Origin: a virus
Reading direction: 5' to 3' (one strand)
DNA length: 37,984 nucleotides
Virus record (IMG/VR): IMGVR_UViG_3300046532_003821
Coordinates: 1 to 37,984 of that record
Both the position numbers and the translations under genes were made by a program. Shown here piece by piece: positions 3,016-34,294 of the stretch. Position 1 is the first letter of the stretch. Each line of letters begins with the position of its first letter. The notes beneath the pieces are model-generated. The model had not been told where the DNA came from. It was given only the letters and a program-made list of their open reading frames with translations, and searched no databases.

Positions 3016-3020
3016 AAAAC

Positions 3021-3049: not shown

Positions 3050-3058
3050 ATCATATAT

Positions 3059-3991: not shown

Positions 3992-4499
3992 TAAAAACAG
4001 CGGATGTGCGTTCAGCTTCAGCGTGGGGCCAGGAACGAAAGGCGTTCCTTCTATTTATTGCAGCGCAATACAACAGCACAGTTGGAATTCGGGAACAAAA
4101 ACCGCAAATTTCTCAAAAAACAGAGAAGATGCGGAGAAGAATATTAACGTAAAATTCAACGAGTTTGAGATAGGGGCAATAATATCAGCATTCAACAATA
4201 GATACGAGTATAGCACCTACCATACCTTTGACGAGAACTCTACCTCAATAAAGCTAACTCCGTGGGATAAATCCCAAAAAACAAAAGACGGAAGCCAAAT
4301 TGTTCCAGCATTCGGACTTGTGCTAACCAGAAACGGGAGCCAGACATTCAGGCTTCCGATGGAACCTGGAGAAGTCGAAGCCTTAAAAATGCTTTTTGCA
4401 AGGTACTTCGATGAGCTGTTTACATTTTCTGCTAACAAAAAAAAACAACCAGAGGAAGCCAGGTCGCAACCAAAGTCGACTAACGAGGCTCCCTTCTAA
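3963..4499 (+). CDS. Probable single-stranded DNA-binding protein (PC4/whirly-like?)
   Basis: A 178-residue protein with alternating beta-rich segments and a helical stretch containing PGEVEALKMLFARYF (about 136-150), followed by a disordered, lysine- and proline-rich tail ending NEAPF. A flexible tail ending in Pro-Phe is typical of phage and bacterial SSBs, where it recruits partner proteins. The body does not look like a classic OB-fold SSB; a strand-rich half ending in FGLVLTRNGSQTFRLPM followed by a helix recalls PC4/whirly-type ssDNA binders. It sits between nrdA and a possible recombination gene, which fits DNA metabolism. It starts inside the protease gene (29-nt overlap) behind a good TAAGGA Shine-Dalgarno site and ends in a TAATG overlap with the next gene. 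The function is inferred, not recognised by direct homology. Confidence 0.4.
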   Translation: MNLSLYKPNSKNSGCAFSFSVGPGTKGVPSIYCSAIQQHSWNSGTKTANFSKNREDAEKNINVKFNEFEIGAIISAFNNRYEYSTYHTFDENSTSIKLTPWDKSQKTKDGSQIVPAFGLVLTRNGSQTFRLPMEPGEVEALKMLFARYFDELFTFSANKKKQPEEARSQPKSTNEAPF

Positions 4500-11300: not shown

Positions 11301-14300
11301 TATATCATTTGATATACCGTAAAATTTTGCGTCAGCCAAAACGCAAGACCACTCACATCAGCGCTCCTGCCTAATACATTTTGATAAACCGCTTGAATTG
11401 CATCATTGTTATTTAATATAGAGTCTGCGAAATAGTGTTTAATCCCATTGTGAGATACTGAATACTTACCATCAGACACAAGATTACCATTCTCGTCGTA
11501 TTGCTCAACATTTGCAGTAACAGGGTAATTAGTACCCAAAGAAGAATTCAAATCAACCTTGACTCCGCCGGCTCCTGGAGTATATCCAGTTTGGTCCAAC
11601 TGGCTAGCTATAAAGCCCTGATAAGGATCATCTATACCTGTAACAATGCCTCTCTTGACAAATACATCGTCAGCAAGAAGCAGGTTAGTTGCGACTTGCT
11701 GGAAATGGATGCCAAACCTTTCCCATATTCTTGAGTTATCGCCCGGGGTAAAAGAGTCGTTGCCCGATGTGTTTTCTGTGGTGCCCGTAGGATATGTAAG
11801 ATCGTATATTGCTTTAGTAAAACCTAAACCGTAACTATCATTAAGCCTTCTAGTGGGAATGTCTTGGCCGAAAGCAAACTCTTCGGCGCCTTCTTTGGCA
11901 AGCCAATATTTTGCATTATAATATACAATATCCCGCCTCTCTTTCGTCCCAAAGTACGTTTCATCGACCTTCCAAGTTCCCCTGTAGGTAGTTGTCGCTC
12001 CGGTTGGACCGCTCTTTCTTGCGGAGATTACCCTATTGACAGTTTCCGCTTGACCCCCTTCAGTTTTCCAGTAGTCTCTCGTGTCGTAAACAACTACCCC
12101 AATAGGTATAGACACCTGACTTTCTTCGTCGAAATACTTTACCGGATTAACGCCTTGAGTTGTCGGCTTGAAAAATGTAAGCGCGGCCTGAATATCCCGA
12201 TCAAGGTGACCAGCGTCATAATCACCGGGCGAGGCAGGGTCCCCAGTCTCATTGGCATAATCATAAAGAATTTTATGAGTCACCTTATGAATGTCAGCAT
12301 TCTGGGCAAGTGGAGGGGATGCATTAACCAACCCCAACACGGAAGTTAAATTAACGCCAGCTTGAGAACCTTCTCCAGCCTCTTGGGTAGTATATCTTTT
12401 AATCCCAGATATTACTGGTACGGTATCAGCAACAAATATACCATAAGTCATAGGCGCGGGCATATCCGCCCAAGCCAACAGCTGGTCGCCGGCATTAAAC
12501 AGGGCGAGCTTAAAGCCCGGGGCTAAAGTTGGATCGCTATCAGAAGGAAGGCTAATGGTCACATACTTAACATCTTGATCGGAGACGTTGGACATGTCGC
12601 CATCAGTTCGTTTTTCTACCGTGGTCTGCATACTAGAACCGTAAGCGCTCGGGCCTCCATCCCGTACGTACTTTCCGTTATTATAATCGTGATAGTAAAA
12701 ATCAATTTGCTTGCCATCATAATTAGATATAGCATTAGGCGTAACAACCCATTTAATCTGATCTCCACTGCCGTCATAGTCGAAGTTGTGACCGTCTATA
12801 GTAAGATAACTAGGCGCGAGACAAGCCTTATTCAAACCGATGTACGCCTCGATTGTCGAAGTCAAGGCCTCAACCGACACAATCACCTCGGTTGCGCTAT
12901 CAGATGTAATAGGTATTTCGGTATTAAGGTTATCGGTAAATAAAGTTACAGTACTAGACCCATTATTTATCTCGACAACAGGAAGCTCCTCGGTGTCGAT
13001 ATAAGTCCGGCCAACCGTCCCGCCAGGATTAGCAGCCCCGCTATCAATTCTCGCAAGGGGCTGAGAAAGCTTGGTATACGTAGTCTTAATCTTTATCCTG
13101 TCCGCACCAATCGTTTTTTGGGAAACAGGGATATAGTACATATAATCCTTACCCGCACCGCTAGAAGTGTCCACGTAATCATTCCCAGAACCAGAATCTA
13201 CATCCTGCAAAAAGTGCCACTTTAAACCGCTGTAATAAATTAATTCTCTTTCCGTAGGATTAGCGCCTGTGGCAGCAGACAAAGTTTTTGGGGCGCCAAC
13301 TGTATATCTGTCAATTAAGTTCCTTGCGTCAGTCTTACGAGTTTTAGGGTAACATTCCCCATCAGGATCTCCATTCAAAAACTTTTCATCTACGACAAAA
13401 CCCTCGGAAGGAATAAGCTCAAAGGAAATGTTACTGCTAGTTGTAGCGTCTGCATGAAATTCATCAGACACATTCTCCGTGCCAAGAAATATCTGCATAG
13501 GCACGATGTTCTCAGCCCTATCAAGATCACCAACCCCCGTCTCCTCATAATACCTTGACCAAGTTATCATCTTTCGCAACAGATTCAATCTTATCGCATG
13601 ATCAATAGGCTCAGCGGTGTTTATATAAACTTCAGTAGAACCATCAAAAAGACTGTTTCCATCCACTACACCACTCCACTTAACTGAGTCCTTATCGACA
13701 GCGTCGCCTGTTGTATTATACGTCTGAAGAACTTTTGTTAGAATCTTTATCTCACTAACGTGATCTGAATTATCAAAATCTAAGTCCAGCCTAGCCTTAC
13801 CAACAACCTTTCCATTAGGATCTGTAATTTCAAATATATTTCCAGAAGCAGAACTCCCTTCATGAGGGTCTATAGCGTAACCCACTGGAGATGCATCCGT
13901 ACTAACAATAGAAACATTGGAACCCTGGATATAGTTTCCACGCAAAACATTACTTATCACCAAGTTAAACAAATGGGTATATGTATTAAGAGATGTACCC
14001 TCTCCAGTAGGAGCAAACAAAGATAGCTTACAAGGAATAACTCGGCTTATTATAGGTTGAAGCTGATGCCTGTCTGCGTAGTCAAGAGAACTTCCTGTAT
14101 CTGCTGCAAATCTAGTATCAAGCAGCCTCGTAATAAACTGGTCGTCAGAATCAACAGTCTCAACAAGTATATTAGCCTTTCCGTCATGAAGATCAACGAC
14201 TTCGAACTCATCAAGAATTTTAATGTTTTCCGCTGTAATTGCTGCGTCCCAGTTGTCGATAGTTATAGTGCCAGGGAAACTGTAATCAAACTTCCTGTCA

Positions 14301-17300
14301 ACCAAAAAGAAAGTACTCTTTCCATCGACAACTGAATCACTAACAGAATAAGTAAACTGTAGCGGATAATTACCCTGCCAGTCACTGCCGTCTCCTGGGT
14401 CAGCATTCGGAAGAGCGCCCCATTGGCTTGAAGTTATAACGGCCCCGTTGACACTATGAACATAGTCTCCCCACTGCCTCCTCAACATAAAGTGAGTCTC
14501 CTGGGGGTTATTAGGATCGCCCTCGACAGTAGGAGGCCCTTCATAAATAGCCAATTGCTCTCGCATAGACTCAACCCAATCAAGACCAATACTCTGAACA
14601 TTTAAATCATGCTCCTCAGTACCATACTTTAATTTAGGATAGATATTTATTATAGCAGTAGAGTCATCTCCGTTTCTTATTATACTACCCTCATCGGAAG
14701 TGAGTATGATAGATGCAAGATTAGCAGGCTTATCCTTTCTTGTTATAGTTATTTTTTTTCTATCCAGAGAGAACTCCTCTGGAATAATTCTCCAGTAATC
14801 GCCTTGAGTTATGGAATACTCTCCCAATGAGCTATTCCAACTATCAATCATCGCCTGGAGTTCGGCAGTGATATCTATTGAGGGGGCTTGGTTTATTAGC
14901 TCAGCACCAGAATGTACGTTTATACTTCTAAAAACGGCTCCATTGTATTTAGCTAAGTCTCCAGCAAGGTAGGTTCTATTCGAGTCGTAGGCAGGAGTCC
15001 TAGGCTTAATCATAAACTCCACAGTATAAGAGTCCGCCATAGGAATTAAGCTAGAAGGAAGCGCTTCGTTGGGGTCCAATAAATCAAGCTCTTCAAGATC
15101 GTCTTTAATTTCCTCTAAAGTATCTCTCTCGACATCATTAGAATTATCTGTTGCGTCGGTAATTGGCTTGCCAGTAAAAAGAATTAGTTGATTATTAAGA
15201 GAATCTACCTCAGGAATTGGGGTGCCTCCTCCCAAGAAATCTAAAGTAATAGAGCCTCCAGCATTAATATCGGAAAGGTCATTTAGACCCATAATGCCTA
15301 TCGCATCATTAGATATAGGCCCGTAAGCGTCATAAGCCTGCTGCTCCTCAACAGTTAAGCTGTCATGCGCGTTTTTACTAATGTATTGATCGTGAGATTG
15401 ATAATGCGCAGACTGCTTCCATATTCCAGGGTTTGTACCAGGCTCGGTTGAACTGTCGTTAACCAAAGCCTTATAAGAAAGATTATTATGCTTAACTATA
15501 TCCCCAGCGACATAGCTGCTACCACTAGCCCACTCCTTGCGCTCGTGAGCATAGGTTTGATTACCGACAAGCCTCGCAACATCACTACCGGCTAGAGTTT
15601 TACTAACGTCTCCGTCCACATAAATTCTAAGCTCAAGCTCGCTAGCGGTATAAGGAGAGCCGTCAACATGCCTAGCGTTTTGAATGGAATATTCTACAGT
15701 AATTCTTCCGTCAGAAGGAGAAATCAGTTGAGTTCGTGTTCCATAAATATCCTTATTAGAAGTATAGTAATGATTCCCTGCATGCTCGTCAAATGATACA
15801 AATTGACTCGTTGTAGACATTTCAATCTTAACAAATGGGTCCGCGCTTTCTTGAACCAAGGTTCCGCGCAAAACTAATTCCGCAGGAGTCCCCGTTCCAT
15901 CATCCCTAAGATACAACCCTCCCCTTGTTGTCTGAAAACCAAATTGCCCATCACCGCTAATAAAAAACCCAGGAACCCCCATTGTATCATGACCAAAACC
16001 CTTACTAGTAATAGATCCATACTCGTATTGAGAGCCGACAACAGAAAAAGGCTTAAAGCCGTCTTCATAAACCTGTTCAAGCATAGGTTGGAATAGAAGC
16101 TTCTCAGAGACGCCTAACTCATTGAAAGCTTGTTGCGTAATATAAGGATCCCCATTAGAGATATCAAAATTTTTAGTGGTGTCCTTCTTTTCATACATGT
16201 ACTTTTGCGAATCAGAGAGGACTCCTCCATTACGGGAAGGCTTAATAGAGTTGCCGATTTCTATCTTATGTGAACCAATAACTCCAGCCGTAATTTTATC
16301 TGCGCCAAGGTCAGCAACCTGAGCACTTGTTATTGTAGCGTTAGCTATGTTAGCTTGGCCGATTGTTGCATTGTTGAACGTTTCAAAATTAACCTCGACA
16401 AAATAATCATATCCACTAAGCTTAGTTCCGTTAGGCGTTCTGTCGATTCGAGCGATCTGAAAAGTGCCAGGATTCCTTGAGTCTTTCCTAAACAGACTTC
16501 TAGATGAATCAGTCTGTATCTTTTCGCTCTTTTGAACATGCAGCCCCCAAGTGCCGAGGCCATTAGGATTAGGTCCCGTAGCGCTAGTAGGCTCATCACC
16601 TTGAGGTACAATTCTTTTTGTACCACTCGAATTAGTAGTAGAGTCTCCATCGAAATCGTTAAGAATATCATTAAGCAGGCCAATTCTTGGGCCGTCTATA
16701 AGGTCGCCCAAGTTATCAATGTCAGTTGCCTCTGAATCTATAACCTCTGTGCCATCAGTTTCAAGTGCGTTATAAGTGTTAGAGGCTGGATTTCCCGTGC
16801 AAAAAAGATAGTAGCCAGAATATTGAATGCCAGTATCACGATCCTTCTCCTCTATGCCAGAATCAGAAGAATCGCTGCCGTGACCAAGGTCGCTCTCGAT
16901 ATCTCGTATGGTTATCCCCTCGTCAAAAGCATTGTGTCGCGAAAACCTAGGGGATACAGAATGATTAGTGTCATACCCATAAGCCCGATCAAAATATATA
17001 TATCTTACATGCTGATCGTCAGTGAGTTGAGTGGGACTGATATCTGCGCCGGAAGCGTCTTTGTATCTCGCGAGGTTTGCGGCGAAGAGCTCGTGCTGAA
17101 CACTCATTTCCCCAGAATCAATATAATAACCCTGTCCGGCGCTATACAAATAATGCCCATGCCACTTAAGGTATACGTCAGCACCGTCCTCCCTGAAAGA
17201 AAACGGATTATCAGGACGAAGCATTAAAGCGTGCGGAAACTCAGAGCTAAGGTCCTGCTCAAAATTCTCTATGTCTCGAATTGCAGGCTTGCCGAGATCC

Positions 17301-20300
17301 TTCTTGACCTGACTACTGTCAGGATTAACAGGGTTAGCATGAAGCCTGCTTCTATTTCCCGCGCGATCAACGGACTCTAAATAAAAGTAACCTCTGGCGT
17401 TAGAATCTCCTTGAACGCTAATTGAAGTTTCCGTAGACGGAACCTGTACCTCAACGATCTCTACATTGGGGATCAACTTCCAGTGAGTAGTGTCCCCTAC
17501 CGCACTTGGCGCGTTACCAGCATTAGAAGTAGTCTTAGACTTAAAACAGCGGCTACCCAGAAAGACAACATCATTAACACTATAACTCTTAACAACACTA
17601 TAATATATTAAATTATAAGTATGAGAACCAGTACCATTATTCAATACAGTATCAGTTCTTACTCGATCAATAATATCATCTTTATATATAATATTTCTAT
17701 CATCATATATTGTAGCATTAGGCAATAGAGCCCATTTTGCAGGAGTGTCATTCGGAGACTCATCAGTAACGCTCTCTAAGGCCCTGTAAAGCCTTGTTCC
17801 CGACTTGTTTGTGCCTAGTATCGTTGGCTTAAATTGAACAAGGTCACCAGAGCCATAGGGCTGCCCAGCAACCCAGTAGGGCCAACTTACATCTAAGGCG
17901 TTTTTAAAGTCAAAGTCTTGCTCAAGGAAATCAGACTCCTGGTAGCTGTACCCTTCGGTATTAAAATTAATAATCTCCTCTTCGCTGGCGGATTTACTAA
18001 TCGGATCACTACCAACCAAATTCCAGAACATTTGAGTATGATCCCGATTATCTAAAATATAATACAAATTATAATAATCAAGGTCAGTAGTACCAACAGG
18101 AGGAGTCCAGTTAAGCTGAAATGTTTTATTGGCGCCGGTAATTTTTAAATCGACAGGCTCAGAGGGAGCATCGAAATCAAGAGTTCCTATAGCTCCTCTT
18201 TCGTCCTGGCTATACCTATGAGGACTGACTGGGGTAACACCTTCAAAAAGCTCGGCCTGCCCGCTACCAAACAAGTCAAACGGAATAATCATGTAGTCAT
18301 ACTCTGTGTCTTGAGCAAACCCGTTCTCACAGAGCATAGGGGGGAAGTCTTGGTATGAGCTATTATTTTCTGTTACCCCTATATTAATTCCGTTAACAAT
18401 AGGCTGCTTAGAGGTATTACCTAAGGAAGAAACTCTTCTTACATAAAAGCCGTCCCCTCCTCCGTATTGCTGCTCCCCGTTTGTAGGATTAATCCCGTAG
18501 TTAAACAACATCATCTCCTCTGAATTTGCGGTTAAGTCTTGGTCTACAAAAAAGTCAGTGGACTGCTTGTTATAAAAATGGCCACCTTGCTGCGGGTTAG
18601 AATTGTCTTGATAAACTTCGGAGTAGCAAGTGACAGGATCGCCCGACAAATCTGGCTCGACATGAGGCCTTCTAAATATTTCTATATACTGAATTCTTTC
18701 GTTAGGGGGCAGCTCAAAATGGACGTTTCCAGCATGAACCCTGACGGCAGAGTGATTACTGCCTCCGTCAGTATTATCATTCTTAGAATTACCCTGATCG
18801 TTCAAACTTTGCGTGCCTCCCCCCAACTGAAATACCGGCGGAGAATTATAACCAGTTTCTTCGACAAGGTGAGTGGTAACATTGTTTTTGTTTATCAACT
18901 CAACTCGAAGCTTCACCCGCCTTTGAGCGTCAACATGCCTCTCCTTGCTATCAAGATTGTGAGGCGTTACATCACTACCATAACTTGCATTATATACAAC
19001 CCTAAACGGATCGTGGACAGATTTATCAAACGACATATCGACTGCTCGCCTTTGGTTGCGGTTATGATCATTAAACCAGCTTCGATATAAGTGCTCGCTT
19101 TGCTCCTTGGTTAAAATGAAAGAGTTCTCTGAAGAAATTTGAAGTTTATTTTCGGCCTTTAGAACAACTCCCGGCTTGTCAATAGTAGAAGACCCCCCTC
19201 CTGCGTCAGCAGGTTCCCCGTTAATAATTGCGAGCGCTGGATCTGCTTCGGAAGGAATTAAGTGCGACAAGTCCCTTGCGTCTCTAACGGGAAAGCTGGA
19301 GGCGGCATCAGAGTAATCGTCAGGACATATAAAACACGCAGTAAAACCCTCGATAGTATTTACAGTATAATCGGTCTTTATCTTATACGCGACATTTCCG
19401 TCTAGATCTTTAGTTATGTCAACCGTATTCCCGACGGAGTCCTTGACTTCCCAACTAATTTGAAAAGATCCCTTATTCTCCCCAAGCGTTGACCCGCTTT
19501 CTTTTATTTCTAAATTTTGTATCTCAAGATAAGAGCTCCAAACCTGAGTCGAGTCAAGAGCAAGCTCAGGAGTGTCAAACTCCTCATGAGAAGTTCCAGA
19601 TTTCTTTATTCTCCCATTGTTAACGGCGAAGTAAGACCCAAACCCATACGCATCATGTAGCTCTATTATATATTTATAATAATTAGAGTGCGTGGCAGAG
19701 TGCCACTCCTGTAAAGACGTAGAAACCTGTCGTATAAGCAGCCTCTCTGAACTGACAAGGGAATAAGCTCCTCCGCTAGCATCGCTTCTGTATTTAAGAA
19801 GCTTTATCTGGCCGTGGTCAAGGTCTGGATCAGAAGCCTGAACCTCGACCTCCATGCTTTGGCCGTAAAGCTCAAAGGTGGCAGATTCAAGAAAAGGTTT
19901 ATCATTTTCCAATATAGCTATAGCACTAAACTTATGATCATCTTTCTCATCACCATTAGCATCAAGATCTATGTTATAAAAAATATCATAACCAACTATC
20001 TTAACTATAATCCTTCTATCCTGATCAGTAATATTATTATACCTATACAAACTAATAATAGATTCTTTATTTAAATAAATTGAAAAGTCTGTATAATTTT
20101 CTAATTTCTCTTGACTATACAGCCAATCGTCAGGCACGTTAAGCTTACCGACAAGCCCACTATCGTTAACCGTAGTCCCATCCCAAGAGGTATAGAACTC
20201 AACATTAAAATGGCTAAACATCGGGTTATCAGAACTCACAGAACCGGCCTTATTGCCAGCCAATCTAGCGTTAGCCTTCAAGGAGAATTGTAATTGAAAA

Positions 20301-20782: not shown

Positions 20783-23700
20783 TCGTAATAACCCCCCTAT
20801 AAGTTGTATCCTTTACAGCAAAATCTTTTGGAGGAAGAGGGATCTCCATGCTTACCTGAGGAGGGATAGGGAGAGTGGGGCGATTAAGGCTGATTTCATT
20901 TTCAATAATAGAGAACTTTTCCCTGTTGTACTCAGAAGCGTTAACCTCGTATTGGCCGTACTCAGACTCAACAACGCTACTAATCCTGTACTGCCTTCGT
21001 CCGACATTTCTGAAGTCATCTATACTTATCTCTATAGTATCCTGAGGTGGGGCCGTAGCAGGCTGCGTATCAGGGATACTCAGCGTTCCAAGGCGACTAA
21101 TCCATTCGTCGAGTTGGCTCTGACTAGGCTTAACAGAAGCTAGGCGAATATAGTCGTGTCCATCATGCGATGAAATTAGATATTTTTTATCGTTTATTAT
21201 CTTATAAAGATTATTTGACGAGCCCCCTATAATTCTAAATATGTCGGTATCCAAAGACGATCTAAACAATGTGGTGGCCGCGCCATTACTATCCGTGACG
21301 ACGATGGTATTGCCGTCGATAAGCTTTACTTCCCTCAGAGAGTTTTGAAGATCGATGTGTCGACTGGACTGAAAATGATCTACATTAACAAGTACAGCGC
21401 CCAGACCCGAACCAGAAGGCCCGCGTTGCTTAAAAGACAAAACAGTACCCTTAGTAGTGTCAGTAGCCTGACCAGAGAAAGAAAAAGAACCGAGGTGCTC
21501 AGAAAAGTAAGAATATTTCTTGCCTTTTATTTGCTTAGCCTCGAGCCCTCCGTTCTCTAATGAATTAAGAATAAAATTGGATAAGACGTTTTCGGAAACA
21601 GACTCAGGCCTAAGAAAGAGATCCTTTTTAAAACCTCTTATTGACCATACAGACCCAACCATCATAGACTCCAGGGCTTCTTTTGTTTCGTCTCTGCCGT
21701 CTACCCGGCGAAACCTTGAGTAAAAATGTTCGCCGCCAGAGATTTCAGCCCCAGCATCAATATCAACCGAGCTATTAAAAGTTTTCCTCATAGCAAACCC
21801 TTGGTCAACAAAGTCTACAGGAGCGCCTCCTTTTGTCTTAGATATTTTAAACGAGGAAAAAGAGTTAGACGATGAAACCGCGTAATAAATACTGCTCTCG
21901 TTAAGTCTTTCTACGACATCTTGCCCACTTCCGTCAACGAACCTATACTGAGGAAGTACTCCAAAAGAAGAAAACCTCAAAGAATCCCCATCCTCAAGTC
22001 CGTGATTACTCCGAATAATAACATCAGAATTTTTATTTACATCAAACTTCTCCTTCTTAACTAGGTTTTTAATTTCCCTTTTATTCTCAGAAATAAAGCC
22101 GTCAAAATAAACCATTTGACTTCTCCTAGTTTCGGAAACCAAGGAGAGCTGGTCGGCTTCAGTAAATGAAGGCAATTTAGACTTACTCTCTGCGACCTCG
22201 TCGAGCTTGTTTGGATCCTCAAAGCCCCTCGGGCTTAGAATACACAGCTCAACTCTATCACTATCAAGACCGGTTTCGGGGTCCCAAAAGCTCAAGTTAG
22301 ACATGAGTTTGTCAACCTTAACAGCGTAATCATTAGGACTTATAGACTTTATTCGGCCATTAATATTCTCGCCAAACCTTCGGCTGTCAGAAATCTCTAT
22401 AACAGAGCCGGGCAAAAGTAACGCACCCTCCATTCCGGTTGTAAACGAAACCATTTCAGTTTCCAAAGTGGGGGCTAGAACCGTAAATTTAGCAAACCTC
22501 TTGGCCTGACCCTTTGAAGTGCATCCGAGTGCGAGAACTTCAGACTCAACATACCCAAACTTATCAATGCCACCGGGGTCTTCATAATACTCAACCTTAG
22601 GCTTAAATCCGTCAAACTTATCTAAATACCTTATTTTAGCAGCAGTAACCCTAGTGCTCTTACCAGAGCCAGCGTAAGCGAAGCCGTCCTTAGAAACGTT
22701 AGCGTCAGTAAACATAAGCAGGGGATCCCCTTTCTTCTCGGTGGAAAAAGAAACTTTTCCACCTATATAATTCAATACAGTCCTAAATTGAGCGACCAAT
22801 TCCTTAACGGTTTGAAGCGCAGACTCCTGACGATTATAATAGACATTTAAAGAAAATCTTGGTTCAACAAGGGGGTAAGTTTTTTCTATACAACAAAAGC
22901 CTGCTGTTCTTTTACTTGAGTCGGTTGAGTTATGATCAATAAAAGTAGGGCCATAGACCTCAACGTAATGAGCGTTGGCTTCAATCTCAGCAGAGAGACT
23001 AGGAACAGACCCTTTGGCAGTAGCCCCCAATACGTTTTTAATTTTTCTCCTCTGAACAGATCCGTCGCTCATGAAGAATGCTATAAATTTACCATTAGTC
23101 GCAAGCCTATCTGGGACAGAATCATTAAATTCATCCAAGAAAGAGGGTCGAGTAAGCTTATCCTTTTGTTTGCTATTAAAAATCCTAATAAAGAAAGAGT
23201 CTCCGTCACGAAGGTCTTCCAGGTACCTACTCCTACTGCCCAGGTAAGAAAGATTATCCCCGTTTTGCGTGGAAAAATTATTTGTCTCAAAGTATCTCTT
23301 GGGAGTCTCTAAAGGAAGCCCGGTCTCCACCAATTCATCGCAAAATCTTGCGGCGCTATATAGGTGCCACTTGTCAACGTCAGACATAGTCATACCATAT
23401 CTACCAAGGCCGAACCTTTTATTTGTCATTATATCTAAAAGAATCCAGGCGGGATTATCAGTCCAAACCAACTCCTTCTCAGAAACCTCTGCATTTGTGT
23501 TCACTCCGCTTTTGCCCCAGGCTCCGGCCCAAGCTCCTATGTATGTTCTGGTTTCAGCGTGGTAATTATCAGGGGTGGCAACTTTTTTAAGCTTTGCAAG
23601 ATAACTTCTATTAGGAACCTGTTGGAAATTCACAGAATCCCAAAAGGTTTTAATCCAGGCGGTGCACGGATAGTCGAATCTCATAAGCTCGCCCGCCAAA

Positions 23701-26069: not shown

Positions 26070-26073
26070 TACC

Positions 26074-26421
26074 TTATGCCTTAAGTGGTATACACTTTTT
26101 TAAATCAAAATAAATAAAATTGTCGTAAAGCATACTATATATTAAATATGGAATCCCCAAAGCTTTGGAATAAGAAATATCCGAATCAGAAGGAAAGGCT
26201 GAAGCCAAAGGATGGGAGTGGAATATGCAGAAGATCTTTTTTTTAATTAAATGTACTTTAGGACTGAGCTCAAAGGCTCTTTCGTTCGCGATCCTATTCT
26301 GCATTGGAAAGAAAACTTTAGGAGTAAAATTCAACACAATTCCGCAGGACTCTCGACCAGGAGACTTGGAGGCGTGTCTTGAGCATTGCTCGAAAATGTG
26401 TGTAGAAATAACATCATCCAT
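26074..26421 (-). CDS. JAMM (Mov34/JAB1-type) metallopeptidase, lambda gpK N-terminal domain equivalent
   Basis: A 115-residue zinc peptidase with an intact JAMM motif: E24 in GRESCGIVL, then H68-S-H70-x7-S78-x2-D81 in FHSHPLASAFPSDSD. In lambda-type tail modules this domain is the N-terminal half of gpK, next to L and I, which is exactly its position here. The NlpC/P60 cell-wall peptidase half normally found in gpK is absent, so peptidoglycan cutting must come from elsewhere or be missing. Its substrate in tail assembly is not established. The ATG lies inside the last codons of the L-like gene (8-nt overlap), implying coupled translation, and the stop is 4 nt before the I-J fusion. Confidence 0.88.
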   Translation of the reverse strand: MDDVISTHIFEQCSRHASKSPGRESCGIVLNFTPKVFFPMQNRIANERAFELSPKVHLIKKKIFCIFHSHPLASAFPSDSDISYSKALGIPYLIYSMLYDNFIYFDLKKCIPLKA

Positions 26422-27448
26422 TTTTCATGTTTTCGGTAGAAGGAAAGCCTCCGAAGCGAAGGGAGCTTCCACTGGAGTTTGTGGCCTTGTCGCCAAATCT
26501 CTTCAAGCAGGAATCTAAAGTTTTTCCACACGAATCCAACCCCCAATACTCTTCGCTAATAGCGGGGAAAGGAGAGGGGGACTGATGATCCTTAACACAA
26601 ACAAAATGAGAAGGGACAGCAGGCTCCTTTTTGCTTATGTATACAACGACATCGCCAAGAACATAAGAGTTATCAGTATCCCATTCTCCCCTGTTAGTAA
26701 ATTTATATACCCCGTACTCCGAGAACCTTCGGTTTTTATGGTTTTCTACAGGGCAGCCGGTATAGCCACACGAGTCAGCCTGGCGGTAACGAAAGGAGCA
26801 ATGATCGGCAAGCATATTCCTACCAGGGAACAATGCGTCATGAACCTCAAGAATAGAAGTCATTTCAAACTCAAGAGAGTCACGGTTTTCAACAATCTTT
26901 CTATGTATATAGTATACCTCGTCAGGAAGATGCGCTTCGGAATCCTGTTTGCCTCCAAAAGGGTTCAGGCCAGATAAAGACTCGTTCCTTTCGGAAGACT
27001 TAACAGTTCCATCGGCATCTGTATAAGAGGTGCTATTTGGAGCAAAATTAACGTCGTCTAAAAACTTAGCAAAAGTCCTCCTTCTTGTAACTTTGCAGCC
27101 ATGAAAATCATAGTTAGAGGAAACTATTGAGGATAGTATGCCGCTAGGATTAGAAATCCTAAGTGTTGGACGGGGAAGCCTCCCGTCAGAAGGAGCCTCA
27201 AGGCCAGAAACATCCACAGGCAGGGGTTGGTAAGCTTTATTCTGCCAGTATATAGGGTTGGAATTATTTATATTAGAGGTAAACCTATAAACAGGGTCAG
27301 AATTAGTTCCGAAACTAATCTTGTATCTTTTTTCAAGCAAAGAGAAGTCCTCCTGCAAATGCGAAAAGTCTATCTCAAAAAATTCCAGCAAAGAATCGGG
27401 CTGCATCTTAAGCAGTTCCTTAGTAATATTTTTACTTGAGTCGGACAT
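26414..27448 (-). CDS. Minor tail protein L homologue (tail tip, probable Fe-S protein) with inserted CBM-like module
   Basis: A 344-residue homologue of lambda gpL: YWQNKAYQPLPVDVSG, RLPRPTLRISNPSG, CKVTRRRTFAKFLDD, HLPDEVYYIHRKI and RQADSCGYTGCPV occur in the family order. GpL is a tail tip protein whose C-terminal domain holds a 4Fe-4S cluster on four cysteines. Here the matching residues are probably C217 and C227, then C307 and C314 in DSCGKTLDSCLKRFG. Between the two pairs lies an extra segment of about 55 residues with the W...Y..GD.V...F.C....P...YW pattern of CBM5/12. C232 and C284 are additional cysteines. A gap of 23 nt separates it from the M-like gene; it overlaps the JAMM gene by 8 nt. 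Confidence 0.9.
   Translation of the reverse strand: MSDSSKNITKELLKMQPDSLLEFFEIDFSHLQEDFSLLEKRYKISFGTNSDPVYRFTSNINNSNPIYWQNKAYQPLPVDVSGLEAPSDGRLPRPTLRISNPSGILSSIVSSNYDFHGCKVTRRRTFAKFLDDVNFAPNSTSYTDADGTVKSSERNESLSGLNPFGGKQDSEAHLPDEVYYIHRKIVENRDSLEFEMTSILEVHDALFPGRNMLADHCSFRYRQADSCGYTGCPVENHKNRRFSEYGVYKFTNRGEWDTDNSYVLGDVVVYISKKEPAVPSHFVCVKDHQSPSPFPAISEEYWGLDSCGKTLDSCLKRFGDKATNSSGSSLRFGGFPSTENMKNG
26543..26692 (-). other. CBM5/12-like module inserted in the L homologue
   Basis: Residues 253-302: RGEWDTDNSYVLGDVVVY, then HFVCVKDHQ and EEYW. It matches the repeated tail module and lies between the C217/C227 and C307/C314 pairs. Confidence 0.65.
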
Positions 27449-27471
27449 ATATTATAATAGCCTTTCAGAAG

Positions 27472-30400
27472 TTAAACATCTACTATTTTGCCAGAAAAGA
27501 AAGGCTGGTCTATAGTATCTCCAGAGAGGGTTAATGGCGCGGAAGTATGAGTAGAAGCGGAGTAGGTATTGTAAGTGATATCTAGAAAAGAGTCTTCTAC
27601 TTTTATGGCGTAGCCAGGAAGTCCACCTTCGGCAAGAACCTCTGAGTTAACCTCCAGGTTCGTACCAGCCTCACCATATCCGCCGCCCTTAGTGCCGCCT
27701 CCTAAGTGAGTTTTAAAGTTATGATCGTTATTTATAGCCAGGCCTCCTAGCCCTCCACCCGAAACAGTGCCAGGTTTACCGCTGGGAGAACCAGAAATAC
27801 CAAAGGGAGCTCCGCCACCGCCACCGCCTCCAAAATTGACCAAGCTATGAGTTTTAATTCTTTTTCCATCTCCCACGAACAATCCTCCCGCTCCCCCGCC
27901 TCCTCCGCCGCGAACAGACGATCCTTCAAGGAAGTATAATCGAAGTTGAACTGCGGAATCGCCTTCAAGACCATCTATAAATATAGCTCCGCCACCATTT
28001 TCACCCTTGCCTGCTGGAATATAATTTTCATTTGAAGTGGTAGGTTTTCCGGCCTCATATATCTCCCCCTCAGAAACCATCCCCTCACCCCCGGAACCTC
28101 CTCGACCGTTAATGCTACAAGAGGAAACTATTAATCTATAATCAGATGCAGAAGGGAGACTCTCTCCGCCCCTAATTTTATCTGCGAGAGTTTTTGTTTC
28201 GCCATTGGTTTGATGAATCCACGATGCGTTCCCCAAATAGAGGTTAATCTTAACCTCATCATTCCAAGGTCCGCCAAGTTTCAGTGCGGGCTGGTGCGGG
28301 TTTGGGGAATTTACATTCCCGGAAAGAAAAATATTGACTTCCTCAAAGTCTTCTAGACTCATAGCCCCAACCTCACCAGAAGAAGAAATCCTTTGAGCTA
28401 GGTTAATAGAAGAAGATTTCTCTTCCACGACTTTTTGCACAATATACCCCTCGACAGGAGAATCGGATAACGAAGAAAAAGGAGCGACCTTTAAAACGAA
28501 AGAACTAGAGTCATTAAGGCCTGCAAAATAACCATCAGGAACCTGTAGCATCAAGATTCCAGGAATGTTTTTATCCGTATCAGAGTCCCAGACTAAACCA
28601 CTAGAGGCTGTTTCGGGTTCGGGAATAATATCCTCTATAATTTTTTCAGCATTCACCAAGGCACCAGAGTCGTTAAGAACCTCATCGCCCAAAGTATCAT
28701 AATCTACATATTTTCCCCCATCCCAATAAACCCTGGTCAAATAAAAACCCCCAGAAATAGAAGGTAGTTTCGAGATAGCTAGAAGGTCCTCTTCAGATGA
28801 AACTAGGGCAAGACGACAACCGTCATGAGAGGCGTTAAGAGCGGCGTTTTTATAAAAGTTTTCACCGTTTAGATCCTTATAGAAGTCAACGGTATCACTA
28901 AAACCATGGTTATCAAAGTAATAAGAATGGCTATCAACCGAAGCCGGAAAGTTTAAATTAACATATAAACTAGATTTACGCAGGTCATTCTTGGATTTAT
29001 TAACGTAAGCGTCTATAGAGGAAGATATTAAAGTCTTATGCTCTATATAATTACTCGAGTCATTCGCGAAGGTGCTGGATGTAAAATCAGAAGCAACCCG
29101 ATACACAACTCCCCCCTCTTGAATTAAGTTTCCCTCAAGATACTCCTGACCATTCTCCTTATAAGTAAGCTCTTGGGTTGCCCCTGAAGAGTATTCTAGC
29201 GAAAGAACAGACCTCTGGGTCGCAGAGGCTGCGGCGGTAAAATAAACCTCAACAAACCTTTCCTCGCCAGCTGGGATCGTTAAATTTTGAGATATTATAT
29301 TAGTAAAGTGCTGGTCTATACCAAGGTAATCTCCATCAAGAAACACTCGTCCGGTAGAATCATGTAGGTAATAGTTAGACCCGTCACTATAAACAACGGA
29401 CCCGTCACCAGAACTAGAGCAAGTCAAACTATAAGAACCGTCAGGAATGTTAGTCATACCAGAGACGGGGGTGGTCTCAGAGTAAACCCCAATATTACTT
29501 TTTGAAAATAGTGCCGAATTAGTAAGGGAAACGGAAGAAGGAAAAATAATAACCTCCTTGCCCCCGATATTTTTAATGGAAATAACCTTTTTCAAGTGCA
29601 AACTCGCAGAGCCTACGGGTTTATTGATATCGAAATCTACATCCAGATCCATAGACAGAACTCCAGAGGAATCCTTTTCTGCAGGTAATATATTATCAAT
29701 CTCGTCATCATCAAGAGGAGTGTTCTGCCCAAGGGGAAACTGCTTAAAGTTAGCGCTGATAGTATGGTTATTTCTGAAGACATAAGTATGATCCCAGGAT
29801 TCACAATAAAACCTTCGCTTCCTATTGTAAGGAGCGGGAGGGGTAAACAAGAAAGACAAGTAACCTAAGTGAGACTCAAGAAAATGGAGAATAGAGTAAG
29901 CTTCTTCGTTGTTTCGGTTTTCAAATTTTAGATTGAATTCTAAGTTGTTTATGTTTTGTTTGTGTTCAGGAAAGTATTGAGAGTATGAAGAAGAGGCGGC
30001 GGAGTACTCCTTAATTGAAGGTTTATGGTCAACAGATAAGGGGATGGAGGGCTTCCAGTAAAACTCTCTAGTCCAGAGGTGCTTATTAACCGAGGTTGCA
30101 ACGCCCGACTGAGAAACGCAAGGCTTGAAAGACCTATTAACGGAATCAGTCCAAGAATAATAATATTTTAAATTCTCAGGACAAAGCACTACGCTATGCT
30201 GAAAGTATTCATCCTCAGCAGACCAAGCTTCAGCTTTCGTAACAAACATTTGAGTGGCGACATTTAAAGTAGAGGCGGTAGTATTAATTATATTTACATC
30301 AACAGTATTAACATCTTCATTCTCAATCTCATGCTTATAATCAAAACAATAAAATCTTCTTATTAAATTTTCATTATTTCGATAAGGATAATATAACGAA

Positions 30401-32058
30401 TCCCCATCCATCCTAAAGCCAGAGATGCCTTGATCATATCTAAGCTCATGAGTCTGCTTATCGGTTTCATGTTGACCAAGATTATTTTCCAAGAAATGGA
30501 CAATACAATTTGCCTCTCGACTGCTCCTATTGGAAAACTTGAGATTCATTTCCATCCTCAAGGAATTAATACCCATGGGAGATACAGATTGATAACCATC
30601 TCCGAAATCAAAAATTTTATTCCTGGAATTAAAACTAACAGTAGACCCGTAGTCTGGGTCGAAAAAGAATTGATCAGAAGACCAAAGCTCGTGATCAGCA
30701 CTGTCAATACTAATATCTATGGATTGCCTTATAACATCGAATGATACAGGGGAAGGTGAGCCAGAATTATCATAAGCTTCTGGTCGCATTAGTTGACCAA
30801 CGCCAAACTCAACTGGGTCTAGAGCCCCATAAATACCTAGGTATAATATGCTTGAGCTTCGACCAATAACTATAAATCGTTGTCGGTTTTGAACATAAAC
30901 CAGACTAGACCCGCTAAAATCCAATACGTTACCTATTTTTAACTCGGTAAAATCAGAGGAAGCGCTACCGTTAACACTGACACTGCCACTCCCAAGCTCG
31001 ATAGTGCCAACGTGTCTTGAATTTTCCACATTCTCTATCGGGGATTTTATTATAACATTAGCAAGAGCTATAGCATCCCCGGAGTCAAATTGATCAGGCT
31101 GAGAGATGTCAGTTCTAGCGTAACAAAACAAGTGGGAATAAGGATTCCTAACGACGTCGAACTGAAGGTACTCAGTATTCTTTTCAAAATTTCCTTTGTA
31201 ATTCTGTACGCTTGAAATATAGTAAGCGTCAGAGTCGGTTTCCCCCTGAACGTCATTAAAACCCACCTCCAAAGAAGAGTCGGTGGAACCGTATTTCCCT
31301 TGAACAATAGTAGTCAACCCACTGGAACTATATTCTTGGGCAGATACATCATAATCATTTGGAGAGCTCCACTCGGAGTTAACTATGCTTGAATAATCGG
31401 GGTCAGAGGACTCGACCTTTACCCAGAATACTGGATTAGATTCAAGAACAGAACCGTTAGGCCCCTTCCAGAAACTCGGTTGAGATGTGTCAAAGTTCTC
31501 GTGATAATACTCGCTCTTAGTCCAGCCGTCAGAATTTTCAGCAACGGACATCAAGTCCCTCCCGTTAAGATTAACAGCTCGATCGTTCCTTTGGAGCATC
31601 AACGTTTGAGCTTCAGACCTAGAGAGGTGTTCCCCAACAACCCATTCCTCAGAGCCAGAAGAAGCGATAACCACCCAATCGGAATTAGAAGTAATATATT
31701 TTTCGTAAGTAGGTACAAGTCCGCCTTCGTCAGAAATCCTGGGTAACCTAAAATATTTGAGAGGACAGTGATAATTAGTATCGGATCTTTCCCACAGTAA
31801 GGTGGAACCAATACTATTTGGGGCATGTCCGGTTTCTACCTTGGCGGTCCAAAGCCAAGATGAATCAGAAGAAGTAAATACAACGCTATCAACAGGATAA
31901 GTAAACCCAGTTCTTCGCCGGTAAGAAGAAGCGGGAGCTTTAATGCACTTGTATAGCACAGGAGATTGATCGTATCCAGAGGAAGAATAATATTGAACGA
32001 GATCATCTTCAGTATAACTCGCTCCGGGATCCCAAAAACCTTTATAAGTATAACTCAT
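27472..32058 (-). CDS. M-like minor tail protein with duplicated M domain, CBM-like modules and glycine-rich C-terminus (1528 aa)
   Basis: By position (after the tape measure block, before L) and sequence this replaces lambda gpM. Two related M-like domains are visible. Copy one (about 455-600) has KIFDFGDGYQSVSPMGIN and NLKFSNRSSREANCIVHFLE. Copy two (about 668-778) has INNLEFNLKFENRNNEEAYS, LHFLESHLGYLSFLFTPP and RRFYCESW. CBM5/12-like segments occur near residues 6-40, 50-90, 288-316, 609-662 and 964-1005. About 1310-1490 is very glycine-rich with runs of six and seven glycines, resembling glycine-rich phage adhesins. GpM itself is only about 110 residues, so most of this protein is added. 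Start: ATG at 32058 behind AGGTGG, in an ATGA overlap with the previous gene. M homology is fairly sure; the adhesin role is inferred. Confidence 0.75.
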   Translation of the reverse strand: MSYTYKGFWDPGASYTEDDLVQYYSSSGYDQSPVLYKCIKAPASSYRRRTGFTYPVDSVVFTSSDSSWLWTAKVETGHAPNSIGSTLLWERSDTNYHCPLKYFRLPRISDEGGLVPTYEKYITSNSDWVVIASSGSEEWVVGEHLSRSEAQTLMLQRNDRAVNLNGRDLMSVAENSDGWTKSEYYHENFDTSQPSFWKGPNGSVLESNPVFWVKVESSDPDYSSIVNSEWSSPNDYDVSAQEYSSSGLTTIVQGKYGSTDSSLEVGFNDVQGETDSDAYYISSVQNYKGNFEKNTEYLQFDVVRNPYSHLFCYARTDISQPDQFDSGDAIALANVIIKSPIENVENSRHVGTIELGSGSVSVNGSASSDFTELKIGNVLDFSGSSLVYVQNRQRFIVIGRSSSILYLGIYGALDPVEFGVGQLMRPEAYDNSGSPSPVSFDVIRQSIDISIDSADHELWSSDQFFFDPDYGSTVSFNSRNKIFDFGDGYQSVSPMGINSLRMEMNLKFSNRSSREANCIVHFLENNLGQHETDKQTHELRYDQGISGFRMDGDSLYYPYRNNENLIRRFYCFDYKHEIENEDVNTVDVNIINTTASTLNVATQMFVTKAEAWSAEDEYFQHSVVLCPENLKYYYSWTDSVNRSFKPCVSQSGVATSVNKHLWTREFYWKPSIPLSVDHKPSIKEYSAASSSYSQYFPEHKQNINNLEFNLKFENRNNEEAYSILHFLESHLGYLSFLFTPPAPYNRKRRFYCESWDHTYVFRNNHTISANFKQFPLGQNTPLDDDEIDNILPAEKDSSGVLSMDLDVDFDINKPVGSASLHLKKVISIKNIGGKEVIIFPSSVSLTNSALFSKSNIGVYSETTPVSGMTNIPDGSYSLTCSSSGDGSVVYSDGSNYYLHDSTGRVFLDGDYLGIDQHFTNIISQNLTIPAGEERFVEVYFTAAASATQRSVLSLEYSSGATQELTYKENGQEYLEGNLIQEGGVVYRVASDFTSSTFANDSSNYIEHKTLISSSIDAYVNKSKNDLRKSSLYVNLNFPASVDSHSYYFDNHGFSDTVDFYKDLNGENFYKNAALNASHDGCRLALVSSEEDLLAISKLPSISGGFYLTRVYWDGGKYVDYDTLGDEVLNDSGALVNAEKIIEDIIPEPETASSGLVWDSDTDKNIPGILMLQVPDGYFAGLNDSSSFVLKVAPFSSLSDSPVEGYIVQKVVEEKSSSINLAQRISSSGEVGAMSLEDFEEVNIFLSGNVNSPNPHQPALKLGGPWNDEVKINLYLGNASWIHQTNGETKTLADKIRGGESLPSASDYRLIVSSCSINGRGGSGGEGMVSEGEIYEAGKPTTSNENYIPAGKGENGGGAIFIDGLEGDSAVQLRLYFLEGSSVRGGGGGGAGGLFVGDGKRIKTHSLVNFGGGGGGGAPFGISGSPSGKPGTVSGGGLGGLAINNDHNFKTHLGGGTKGGGYGEAGTNLEVNSEVLAEGGLPGYAIKVEDSFLDITYNTYSASTHTSAPLTLSGDTIDQPFFSGKIVDV
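27619..28110 (-). other. Glycine-rich adhesin-like region of the M-like protein
   Basis: Residues about 1317-1480 contain SVRGGGGGGAGG, VNFGGGGGGGAPFG, GGGLGGLA and GGGTKGGGYG separated by short beta-type stretches. This is compatible with polyglycine-II packing as in gp38-type adhesins, but no specific family motif is recognised. Confidence 0.5.
29044..29169 (-). other. CBM5/12-like segment in the M-like protein (copy 5)
   Basis: QEYLEGNLIQEGGVVYRVAS follows the Y..G(D/N).(V/I)...G..Y pattern. The closing Trp is not evident, so this copy is weak. Confidence 0.35.
30073..30234 (-). other. CBM5/12-like segment in the M-like protein (copy 4)
   Basis: EAWSAEDEYFQHSVVLCPEN, then YYYSWTDSV and HLWTREF, keeps the Trp, Tyr, V-V, aromatic and closing Trp. 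It lies between the two M-like domains. Confidence 0.5.
31111..31197 (-). other. CBM5/12-like segment in the M-like protein (copy 3)
   Basis: GNFEKNTEYLQFDVVRNPYS and LFCYARTD match the first half of the module (aromatic, Y, D-V-V, aromatic). The closing Trp is not evident. Confidence 0.4.
31783..32043 (-). other. Two CBM5/12-like segments at the N-terminus of the M-like protein (copies 1 and 2)
   Basis: Copy 1: FWDPGASYTEDDLVQYY and LYKCIKAP. Copy 2: RTGFTYPVDSVVFTSSDSSW, ending in HAPNSIGSTLLWERS. Both keep the Y...D.V.....(Y/W) core. Confidence 0.55.
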
Positions 32059-32996
32059 TTAACCACCTGCCTAACTGTAAAATTCCCATTCAAATAAGAG
32101 CCGTCCTGAGCGGATAGGCTCTGCTGAGTAACCTGCCCAGCGCAACCAAACTTAGCAAGAAGATTACTTTGACCATCTCCAGCCTCGTCCTTAGCTTCAA
32201 ATAGCTGTAAAGCAACCTCGACAGCAGAAAAGTCTTCGCCGCCAAACCCATGCTGCATCTTGCCTGTTTCGTTTATCGCGGGTATTATTTTATTTGAAGT
32301 AATTCGAGTCTCAATGACCAAACCGGAGAGAGAAACCCTATAAGGCATGATTGCCCCGGGAACATAATTTGCAACAGGATGCTCATTAGCCCTTATCGAG
32401 AAGTTGTATTTCCGATCAGCCCGTACGCTGTATTGCGCAGACAATAACTGAACATTAAACCGAGACTTATCCTGTAAATTGATGCCGTCAACAACAACGT
32501 CCCCGAAACTCTTCAAGCCTTCAGCTGGATTCAAATTATCTATAACATCTAACTCCTTAGATATCTGTATAATACTGCCAAATATCTCATACTCTGCGGT
32601 TGCGCGAACAAGGTCAAAAGGGCGCATACTAAAAGAGAAACTTTTCAGCCCCGCATTAAAAAACCTATATTCCCCAACCCTCCCGAACTGCTGAAGGGCG
32701 GTAGAGGTTTGTTTATTTAATTCAAAAATGCTAGCAATCGTATTCCTGTTATTAACCTCATCATATATAAAATGCTGCTTAGAAATAACAAAGTCCACAG
32801 ATAAAGTTCCCTTTACTCCGTCGGTAGGGGTGAGTGTTGGATTATTTACGGTTGCCCCAACTTGGTCAATATCAAAGCTGTCGAATCTGATATCCTTAGT
32901 TAGGGAGGTTTGCATGTCTAAAGAAACGGAGGTCGCGTATACCTGAAACGCCCCTATCGTAACCATGCAATCCCTAAAACTAACGAACTGGCCCAT
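32055..32996 (-). CDS. Tail protein of unknown exact role, possibly tube-like (313 aa)
   Basis: A soluble, beta-rich 313-residue protein without signal peptide or membrane segment. It lies between a 432-residue tail protein and the M-like protein in an operon of 1-4 nt overlaps, so it is almost certainly virion-related. Its N-terminal part (FQVYATSVSLDMQTSLTKDI then PTDGVKGTLSVDF) can be lined up by eye with the start of the neighbouring 432-residue protein (SQCDMSYNTQTS then PTEGQVELSRY), suggesting distant relatives. Two-domain beta proteins of this kind could be tail tube or distal-tail ring proteins; lambda has no counterpart between H and M. The start codon overlaps the previous stop in TAATG, with AGAAGG just upstream. 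It ends in an ATGA overlap with the next gene. Confidence 0.6.
   Translation of the reverse strand: MGQFVSFRDCMVTIGAFQVYATSVSLDMQTSLTKDIRFDSFDIDQVGATVNNPTLTPTDGVKGTLSVDFVISKQHFIYDEVNNRNTIASIFELNKQTSTALQQFGRVGEYRFFNAGLKSFSFSMRPFDLVRATAEYEIFGSIIQISKELDVIDNLNPAEGLKSFGDVVVDGINLQDKSRFNVQLLSAQYSVRADRKYNFSIRANEHPVANYVPGAIMPYRVSLSGLVIETRITSNKIIPAINETGKMQHGFGGEDFSAVEVALQLFEAKDEAGDGQSNLLAKFGCAGQVTQQSLSAQDGSYLNGNFTVRQVVK
32063..32068 (-). promoter_or_regulatory. Ribosome binding site of the M-like gene
   Basis: AGGTGG lies 4 nt before the ATG at 32058 and supports this start, which overlaps the previous stop codon in ATGA. Confidence 0.55.
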
Positions 32997-34294
32997 TACC
33001 TTCTTGTCTCCACTTGTGCGTGTTTATATTCAGGAAGGCTGCTGAGCTCTATATATTTAGAAGGGTCCTCTTTGTATACCTCAGTATAATTCCCCCTCCA
33101 ATCCCCGCCGTCAGCAGGATCGATAGTAGGAAGAAGCAGCCACTGGGCCCTGTATACTACAGCTCCCGTATCCGAGTTCATATACTCCCCAAAGAAAGGG
33201 GAAAAATCCTCAGTGTCAACGCCTTCAAAAGAAACTGTTAAGGTGGACTCCTGCTGAGAAGGGGAGGAGATTCCTTCGCTTAGAAGCTTTGCCTTGCTTA
33301 TACTATATTCCATTAGAACGCTCCCGTCTTGGGGGTTCTTCACTTCAACGACAACATCTTGCTCGATCCTGCCGTTAACCCAGTTAGCATAATCTAAAAA
33401 CGCTCTCATGTCAGACAACTTATAATTGTCCATGGAAACAGTAAAATCAAATGTTGTTTTAATTGGGTAAATAATCTGTATATCAAGTGCTTCATAATCT
33501 GTTATAGGTGTACCGCTATCAGCCTCTTCCCGTAGAGCATATAACGAATCTAAATCTAGACCTCTTGAATAATTAAAACCAAGTATGGGATTAGAACCAG
33601 CAAACTCACTTAAAGTATTTGTAGCATTCTTATATATTGAACCTTTAAAACTTATATCTATACTACCTTGTGTTGGAATAATATAATTTCTTTCTTTTAC
33701 TTTTGAATTTTCCGCCAGCACCTCTTTCGCGTCAAGCATGGATATGAAGTTCCAATCAGAGGAGTCTTCTGGAGCAGTATTACTAGCCCCAGAAGCGGGA
33801 GCGGGGATTATATTTTTAGCTTTATAAACCTTATCTTCAGCAAAGCCGTCCGAGGCGGTGTGTTTTCTGGAAACTAAATCATCAGCAGCATATGCACTAG
33901 AAGGATTCCATAAAGAGAACGGGCTCACTCCGCCACCAAGGTTACCGTATACTTTAAAACTATTACTAATCTCAGGAATTTGACCGACATTGCAACTAAC
34001 CCTATAATTAAGCAGCCTACCCCTTGTGAAACCCACACTTCTTCCGCTGTCAAATATTATACCACCCTGAACCTGATCTTCATCACCTATATCCTTAATA
34101 AAATCTTCGCCCAGCATGTATCGAGATAATTCAACCTGTCCTTCGGTTGGCCCGCTAATAAAATTATCAACATATCCAAGCCCGGCAATATACAATGGGC
34201 TTGTTTGAGTATTGTAGGACATATCACATTGGGATATGCCAGAAACTAATTGATTCTGAACTATAAATACTTGTTCATGACCAGAAAAGCTCAT
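32996..34294 (-). CDS. Tail protein of unknown exact role with inserted CBM-like module (432 aa)
   Basis: The first gene after the tape measure, starting in a TAATG overlap with it; AGGAGG lies 12 nt before the ATG. The protein is beta-rich with no membrane segments. A CBM5/12-like insert occupies about 127-183 (SLWNPSSAYAADDLVSRKHT, VYKAKN, SSDWNFI). The C-terminus carries WLLLPTIDPADGGDWRGNY, a motif also present in the giant fibre. The rest may share a tube-like fold with the next gene. The AT-richest stretch, about 33430-33700, covers the middle of the protein and differs from the flanks. A structural role in the tail is nearly certain from context, but the specific role (tube, ring or accessory tip protein) cannot be read from sequence. 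Confidence 0.6.
   Translation of the reverse strand: MSFSGHEQVFIVQNQLVSGISQCDMSYNTQTSPLYIAGLGYVDNFISGPTEGQVELSRYMLGEDFIKDIGDEDQVQGGIIFDSGRSVGFTRGRLLNYRVSCNVGQIPEISNSFKVYGNLGGGVSPFSLWNPSSAYAADDLVSRKHTASDGFAEDKVYKAKNIIPAPASGASNTAPEDSSDWNFISMLDAKEVLAENSKVKERNYIIPTQGSIDISFKGSIYKNATNTLSEFAGSNPILGFNYSRGLDLDSLYALREEADSGTPITDYEALDIQIIYPIKTTFDFTVSMDNYKLSDMRAFLDYANWVNGRIEQDVVVEVKNPQDGSVLMEYSISKAKLLSEGISSPSQQESTLTVSFEGVDTEDFSPFFGEYMNSDTGAVVYRAQWLLLPTIDPADGGDWRGNYTEVYKEDPSKYIELSSLPEYKHAQVETRR
33746..33916 (-). other. CBM5/12-like module in the 432-residue tail protein
   Basis: SLWNPSSAYAADDLVSRKHT, KVYKAKNIIPAP and TAPEDSSDWNFI keep Trp, Tyr, D-x-V, Y-K-A, P and the closing Trp. It begins right after a glycine-rich GNLGGGVSP stretch, as expected for an inserted unit. 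Confidence 0.6.

Follow-up and report, generated by a model that had tools for sequence, protein, structure and literature searches.

CBM5/12-like modules in four distal tail proteins encoded by a lambda-like viral tail operon

Background

In RcGTA and the roseophage R4C, many sugar sites have been proposed over the distal tail protein, the hub, the megatron and the fibres (PMC7296036, PMC10276861). In lactococcal siphophages of the 936 group, carbohydrate-binding modules (CBMs) are distributed over several virion proteins and two of them bind the host as GFP fusions (PMC6669499). Among such modules, CBM5/12 domains are built around a Tyr and a C-terminal Trp with a core role (PMC8449059), and characterised members bind chitin through exposed aromatics, namely Trp687 in ChiA1 and a Tyr-Trp pair in CBM5.

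Here we analyse an IMG/VR virus contig of 37,984 bases ("the window", i.e. the whole stretch of DNA), which carries a lambda-like tail operon on its minus strand. According to our best explanation, the tail operon in the window belongs to an uncultured lambda-like siphophage that has CBM5/12-fold modules at five kinds of place in the tip. We estimate the probability of this explanation as a whole, including the function proposed below, at about 0.58.

Results and discussion

Tail operon

The genes of the operon are as follows.

34294-37962, minus strand, tape measure
32996-34294, minus strand, 432-aa protein
32055-32996, minus strand, 313-aa protein
27472-32058, minus strand, M-like protein of 1528 aa
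26414-27448, minus strand, L homologue (hub) of 344 aa; Pfam Phage_tail_L 133.4 bits, Foldseek top match lambda gpL (8iyk_L, E 6.9e-14)
26074-26421, minus strand, JAB protein
20775-26069, minus strand, I-J fusion of 1764 aa
8333-20782, minus strand, fibre of 4149 aa with C-terminal Peptidase_S74 chaperone (Pfam PF13884, 52.5 bits)

The I-J fusion matches tail assembly protein phrog_32 at aa 1-196 and central fibre J phrog_31 at aa 1068-1253. Plus-strand genes at 589-7635 face the tail operon and encode a ribonucleotide reductase (575 bits), a trypsin-like protein and two glycosyltransferase-like proteins. Megablast for near-identical cultured phages returned no match, and a scan of genome contigs for the L gene in hosts found no relative.

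Module copies and their kinship

A strict motif, W.{3,8}Y..[GDN]D[LIVM][VAIL], was run on the predicted proteins. It gave six matches representing five distinct copies, while 0.035 matches were expected in shuffles, and all of them fell into the fibre, M-like, L and 432-aa proteins. Profiles agree with this distribution, so the spread over four distal tail proteins claimed in the original prediction is confirmed. Its wording "nearly every protein" of the tip was too broad, because no copy is supported in the I-J, 313-aa and JAB proteins or in the tape measure. Judged from sequence, eight copies are supported, four of them in the fibre (F1-F4), two in the M-like protein (M1, M3) and one each in L (L1) and the 432-aa protein (Q1). 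They are listed here together with two marginal candidates.

17717..17887, minus strand, F1, fibre aa 966-1022; motif and profiles; ortholog in locus L008
17462..17614, minus strand, F2, fibre aa 1057-1107; profiles; ortholog in L008
15401..15541, minus strand, F3, fibre aa 1748-1794; sole copy over the Pfam CBM_5_12 cut-off
14774..14998, minus strand, F4, fibre aa 1929-2003, with internal insert; PF02839 20.5 bits, E 5e-4, below cut-off
11714..11983, minus strand, fifth fibre candidate (marginal), aa 2934-3023
26531..26695, minus strand, L1, aa 252-306 of the L homologue, inside the iron-sulfur domain
31777..32046, minus strand, M1, aa 5-94 of the M-like protein, N-terminal, with long internal insert; profile comparisons and shuffles
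30064..30240, minus strand, M3, aa 607-665, linker between two gpM-like domains; profile link to L
29035..29172, minus strand, M4 candidate (marginal), aa 963-1008
33737..33922, minus strand, Q1, aa 125-186 of the 432-aa protein, in a loop; fibre profile and shuffles

A check against CBM5/12 profiles had been proposed, and its outcome was divided. F3 (fibre aa 1750-1789, 35.7 bits) passes the curated cut-off of PF02839 (CBM_5_12; 26.2 bits), and its PDB matches are chitin-binding domains of chitinases (4tx8, E 0.0016; ChiA1 ChBD 1ed7, E 0.011). The other seven copies score below the cut-off: M1 and L1 are matched over the N-terminal third only, with 12-15 bits, and Q1, F1 and F2 gave no match with PF02839.

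The first iterated profile might have drifted towards L. For this reason, M1, L1 and Q1 were retested with a profile built without them, consisting of fibre copies and PDB CBM5/12 sequences and containing nothing from the L, M or 432-aa proteins. Each of the three outscored all 1000 of its own shuffles. M3 went undetected by this profile and was tested by profile-profile comparison, in which column-shuffled decoys reached a probability of 3.5% at most. The PDB CBM5/12 set was linked to the fibre copies with 97.9% and to the L modules with 95.4% (E 2e-8, full-length alignment). M1 was linked to fibre (90.6%), L (89.9%) and CBM5/12 (69.4%). Q1 was linked to the fibre (79.6%) and gave no match to the CBM5/12 reference directly. 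M3 was linked to L with 94.1% and to the fibre with 53%, and compared directly with the PDB CBM5/12 set it reached 1%, i.e. no match; we assign it to CBM5/12 kin because of its link to L, which makes the assignment a chain and not a direct match.

Of the "about a dozen" segments originally counted, eight are thus supported, two are marginal and two unsupported, the repeated module in tail proteins itself being real. Five copies had been predicted in the fibre, where four stand; the fifth, like M4, was picked by eye, and in each case 1 of 1000 shuffles scored as well (for the fibre candidate there is also no Pfam match). About five had been predicted in the M-like protein; M1 and M3 hold, M4 (which occurs in L006 too) is marginal, and M2 was rejected, since 66 of 1000 shuffles were as good. 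The single copies expected in L and in the 432-aa protein were both recovered. A weak copy suspected near residue 638 of the I-J fusion was dropped: no profile found it, 21 of 1000 shuffles were as good and Pfam gave no match.

Fold and ligand residues

The L copy was the one modelled. Alone, it gave an AlphaFold model with pLDDT 90.7, whose top PDB match in Foldseek is All3316 (7b5h) from the baseplate of an Anabaena injection system (probability 0.99, TM 0.63, E 0.08). The matched segment of All3316 scores 26.3 bits against CBM_5_12, at a cut-off of 26.2. Among the top 50 PDB matches there is no characterised chitin-binding domain, and no match reaches E 0.001. Structure matches from a viral library with probability 1.00 include phage proteins named chitin-binding type-3, CBM family 5/12 and ChiC_BD. 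The claimed kinship to CBM5/12 therefore stands for F3 by Pfam and for the rest by profile comparison, with the confident model as a further argument in the case of L1.

One could object that the motif arose by convergence, in short beta hairpins with W, Y and GD that are unrelated to CBM5/12. The domains are indeed short, and for two of them, M3 and Q1, the CBM5/12 reference is not matched directly. We nevertheless consider convergence very unlikely, because the L family aligns to CBM5/12 over its full length with clean decoys and the structure of its module matches annotated phage CBM5/12 domains.

The core Tyr and C-terminal Trp are also present in F1-F4 and Q1. The position of the exposed ligand aromatic is non-aromatic in F1-F4 and Q1, Phe in L1 and mostly His across the L family. 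L modules have a conserved His in common with ChiA1 and often an H-H-P-F stretch at the position of the ChiA1 Trp. Because the exposed aromatics are not conserved, chitin binding is not implied, and we leave the predicted ligand general.

Module in the hub protein

L matches Phage_tail_L (PF05100) with all four iron-sulfur cysteines present, and lambda gpL aligns to it in two pieces, one on each side of L1. Cys217, 227, 307 and 314 are invariant in 30 aligned L homologues. L1 is located between the pairs Cys217/Cys227 and Cys307/Cys314, and 29 of the 30 homologues have a module between the pairs. In a wider survey, an insert of at least 72 residues occupies the L1 site in 80 of 81 distinct L proteins, the sole exception (L057) having an insert of 30 residues. 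The core Tyr, Pro and final Trp are kept in all 78 aligned L modules (Y13 and W53 invariant), and a Cys is nearly invariant. Many of the surveyed L genes are from loci that were retrieved by their similarity to the 432-aa protein and not to L, so the conservation of L1 is not a search artefact. In five L proteins from cultured phages (Halomonas, Acinetobacter, Rhizobium, Klebsiella and N15), a short loop stands in place of the module. The AlphaFold model of whole L reaches a medium pLDDT of 72, mostly above 90 in the module region, and its best match is lambda gpL.

Some relatives carry further inserts in L. The L homologues of L041, L044, L045, L054 and L056 are about 700 aa long, with large extra inserts after the second cysteine pair that look laminin-G-like by eye (those of L044 and L056 have no Pfam match), and a PA14-like insert is present in the homologue of L023 (20.9 bits, below cut-off).

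Modules of the M-like protein

M3 separates two domains related to lambda gpM.

30475..30672, minus strand, gpM-like domain A, aa 463-528; PF05939 34.3 bits, alone below the 39-bit cut-off
29740..30066, minus strand, gpM-like domain B, aa 665-773; PF05939 49.1 bits

The presence of two PF05939 domains in one M-like protein (29740-30672) is an arrangement kept in relatives, for example in L076. M3 is conserved between the gpM-like domains in about 55 relatives, while M1 was observed solely in the clade of the window (L005-L010) and in L063. Because lambda gpM forms a ring of six, we infer that three double-gpM proteins could build a six-fold distal ring, which would directly match a three-fold hub.

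The 432-aa protein and the fibre

The loop that contains Q1 varies greatly in length: many relatives have 15-19 residues there, the window's clade has 85 including Q1, and other relatives have up to 506. In L015 (homologue at L015:1578-3923) the loop insert is a GDSL lipase-type domain (43.8 bits), and this homologue is a possible tail-borne esterase. Loop inserts of L123, L118 and L101 gave no Pfam match. The loop is a hot spot at which different modules are inserted and, as such, a natural place for reading the evolution of host range.

As to the identity of the 432-aa protein, Pfam and PHROG returned no match, none of the solved structures was a convincing relative, and its profile comparison with the 313-aa protein found nothing. 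Two homologues have very long C-terminal extensions, one with DUF285 repeats (L109:2144-5764, 802 bits), the other with a metalloprotease-like HExxHxxGxxx stretch noticed by eye (L102:8480-11830). The 432-aa protein also shares a second stretch with the fibre, GAVxxxxxQWxxLPxxDPxDGxDWxGNY (aa 377-403, 33086-33166, and fibre aa 2113-2139, 14366-14446), and a similar one lies at the tail of the L063 homologue. For the central region of the fibre, a pattern search in viral contigs found no relatives.

Origin of the copies

Module shuffling within the operon had been named as the likely source of the copies. In a tree of 64 modules, the copies sort by site and not by genome, with 6 label changes where the minimum is 5 and shuffled labels give 34.2 on average; the tree rests on 72 columns and its deep branches are weak. 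The tree of copies that had been suggested as a check hence speaks against shuffling. The same L1 and M3 sites are, moreover, common to dozens of distant phages. Recent spread within the operon would fit the one loosely supported part of the tree in which the fibre, Q1 and M1 copies stand together with cellular CBM5/12. Because L1 and M3 occupy fixed family-wide sites and modules cluster by site, shuffling is not supported for the main copies; we reject it for L1 and M3 and hold it to be highly improbable as a general origin. Going by the sampled genes, L1 and M3 are ancestral and nearly universal in the family and were in place before these phages diverged. The fibre copies fall among cellular CBM5/12 sequences on the tree, and the fibre, Q1 and M1 copies may be later gains.

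Proposed function

We suggest the following model. The first ancestral site would be the one between the cysteine pairs of the iron-sulfur domain in the gpL-type hub, so that a tip would have three L modules provided that L forms a trimer as it does in lambda. The second would be the linker between the two gpM-like domains of the M-like protein, presumably the distal tail ring. The other sites (N-terminus of M, loop of the 432-aa protein and four in the fibre) are seen only in fibres or in closer relatives of the window. Fibre modules would reach outwards, and those of hub, ring and loop would cover the exterior of the tip. Such a tip could make multivalent, individually weak contacts with host-surface polysaccharide during approach and docking, and weak repeated contacts of this kind are probably the most likely job of the modules. 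That the modules are exposed on the particle we infer from lambda, where the iron domain of gpL lies on the outer surface (PMC10721106).

Glycan binding by the modules is a plausible prediction. In favour of the explanation as a whole are the profile links with their decoy controls, one member of Pfam level, the confident model of the L module with its structure matches, the conservation of the L and M3 modules, the GDSL esterase in the L015 loop and the domain, called oligosaccharide-binding, that RcGTA and R4C have in the same hub slot. Against it, the exposed aromatics are not conserved, the top 50 PDB matches of the L module include no characterised chitin-binding domain, and most copies stay below the Pfam cut-off.

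A fixed and nearly universal module can equally be structural. L1 and M3 might be small beta domains with the task of stiffening the hub and spacing the gpM-like domains, and bind no ligand, only the fibre and loop copies touching glycans, if any. Their almost invariant position would be explained in this way, as would the fact that the residues invariant in 78 L modules are the core-type Tyr, Pro and Trp, plus the nearly invariant Cys, with the ligand aromatics of chitin binders missing. Further, the closest solved domain, All3316, belongs to an injection-system baseplate, and its paper reports no glycan role. On the other hand, lambda-type hubs function without the insert, which is thus not needed for core assembly; L modules keep the conserved His and often the His-His-Pro-Phe patch, and in RcGTA and R4C the equivalent slot has been described as sugar-binding. 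On balance, we consider a purely structural role of L1 and M3 possible but rather unlikely.

A third reading extends the preferred one, i.e. glycan contacts, to signalling. With the module spliced between the two pairs of cluster-holding cysteines, a bound ligand would put strain on the cluster domain; the L module might then act as a glycan sensor coupled to the iron-sulfur domain and help to trigger tip opening. We regard this as very improbable. If it were true, the conserved and unexplained gpL cluster would gain a function. To our knowledge the cluster has no known function, and because it sits at the surface, a conserved module in its domain is a testable lead.

Comparison with known systems

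Glycan-binding inserts in the hub slot and over the whole tip are already published for RcGTA, R4C and the lactococcal 936 phages. Within the open-access literature searched, three aspects appear to be new: that this type of module occupies the hub slot and the M linker, that it is fixed throughout a phage group, and that the loop of the 432-aa protein serves as an exchange site. In a large uncultured phage group, a module of sugar-binding type is thus built permanently into the hub and into the M-like (distal ring) protein and is not a movable ornament.

Lambda gpL (8iyk) resembles the window's L in the whole hub fold and the four cysteines; where the window's family has the module, lambda and the cultured homologues examined have a short loop. 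Compared with CBM5/12 (PF02839; ChiA1 ChBD 1ed7, CjCBM5 6Z40), the modules have the core Tyr, the C-terminal Trp, the GD-V turn and the length in common, and L copies also share the Y/F-x-C....H stretch of ChiA1. They differ in that the exposed ligand aromatics are not conserved and most copies fall short of the Pfam cut-off. All3316/Cis13 of the thylakoid-anchored injection system in Anabaena (7b5h), the best structural match of the L module, belongs to a tail-derived baseplate and has a segment that passes the CBM_5_12 cut-off, but it is a small protein of its own, predicted to have a transmembrane domain, and not a hub insert. The 936 phages, too, have CBMs on several virion proteins. Their hosts, however, are Gram-positive, and the CBMs are in the neck, the major tail protein and evolved Dit instead of the gpL iron-sulfur domain.

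The RcGTA and R4C hubs (gp13 type, PF09931 + PF09356) resemble the window's L in having a small domain inserted between the halves of a four-cysteine iron-binding domain. This inserted domain has been called oligosaccharide-binding and occupies the same slot as L1, but it is a different domain: the R4C insert carries other Pfam domains than L1, and the R4C hub searched with the module profiles gave no match above the shuffled hub, so that kinship of the inserts was not found. The insert is CBM5/12-like here and of another kind in RcGTA and R4C; unrelated small domains are thus accommodated in the hub's iron-sulfur slot in different lineages. Unlike in RcGTA and R4C, one module type recurs in four proteins of the window.
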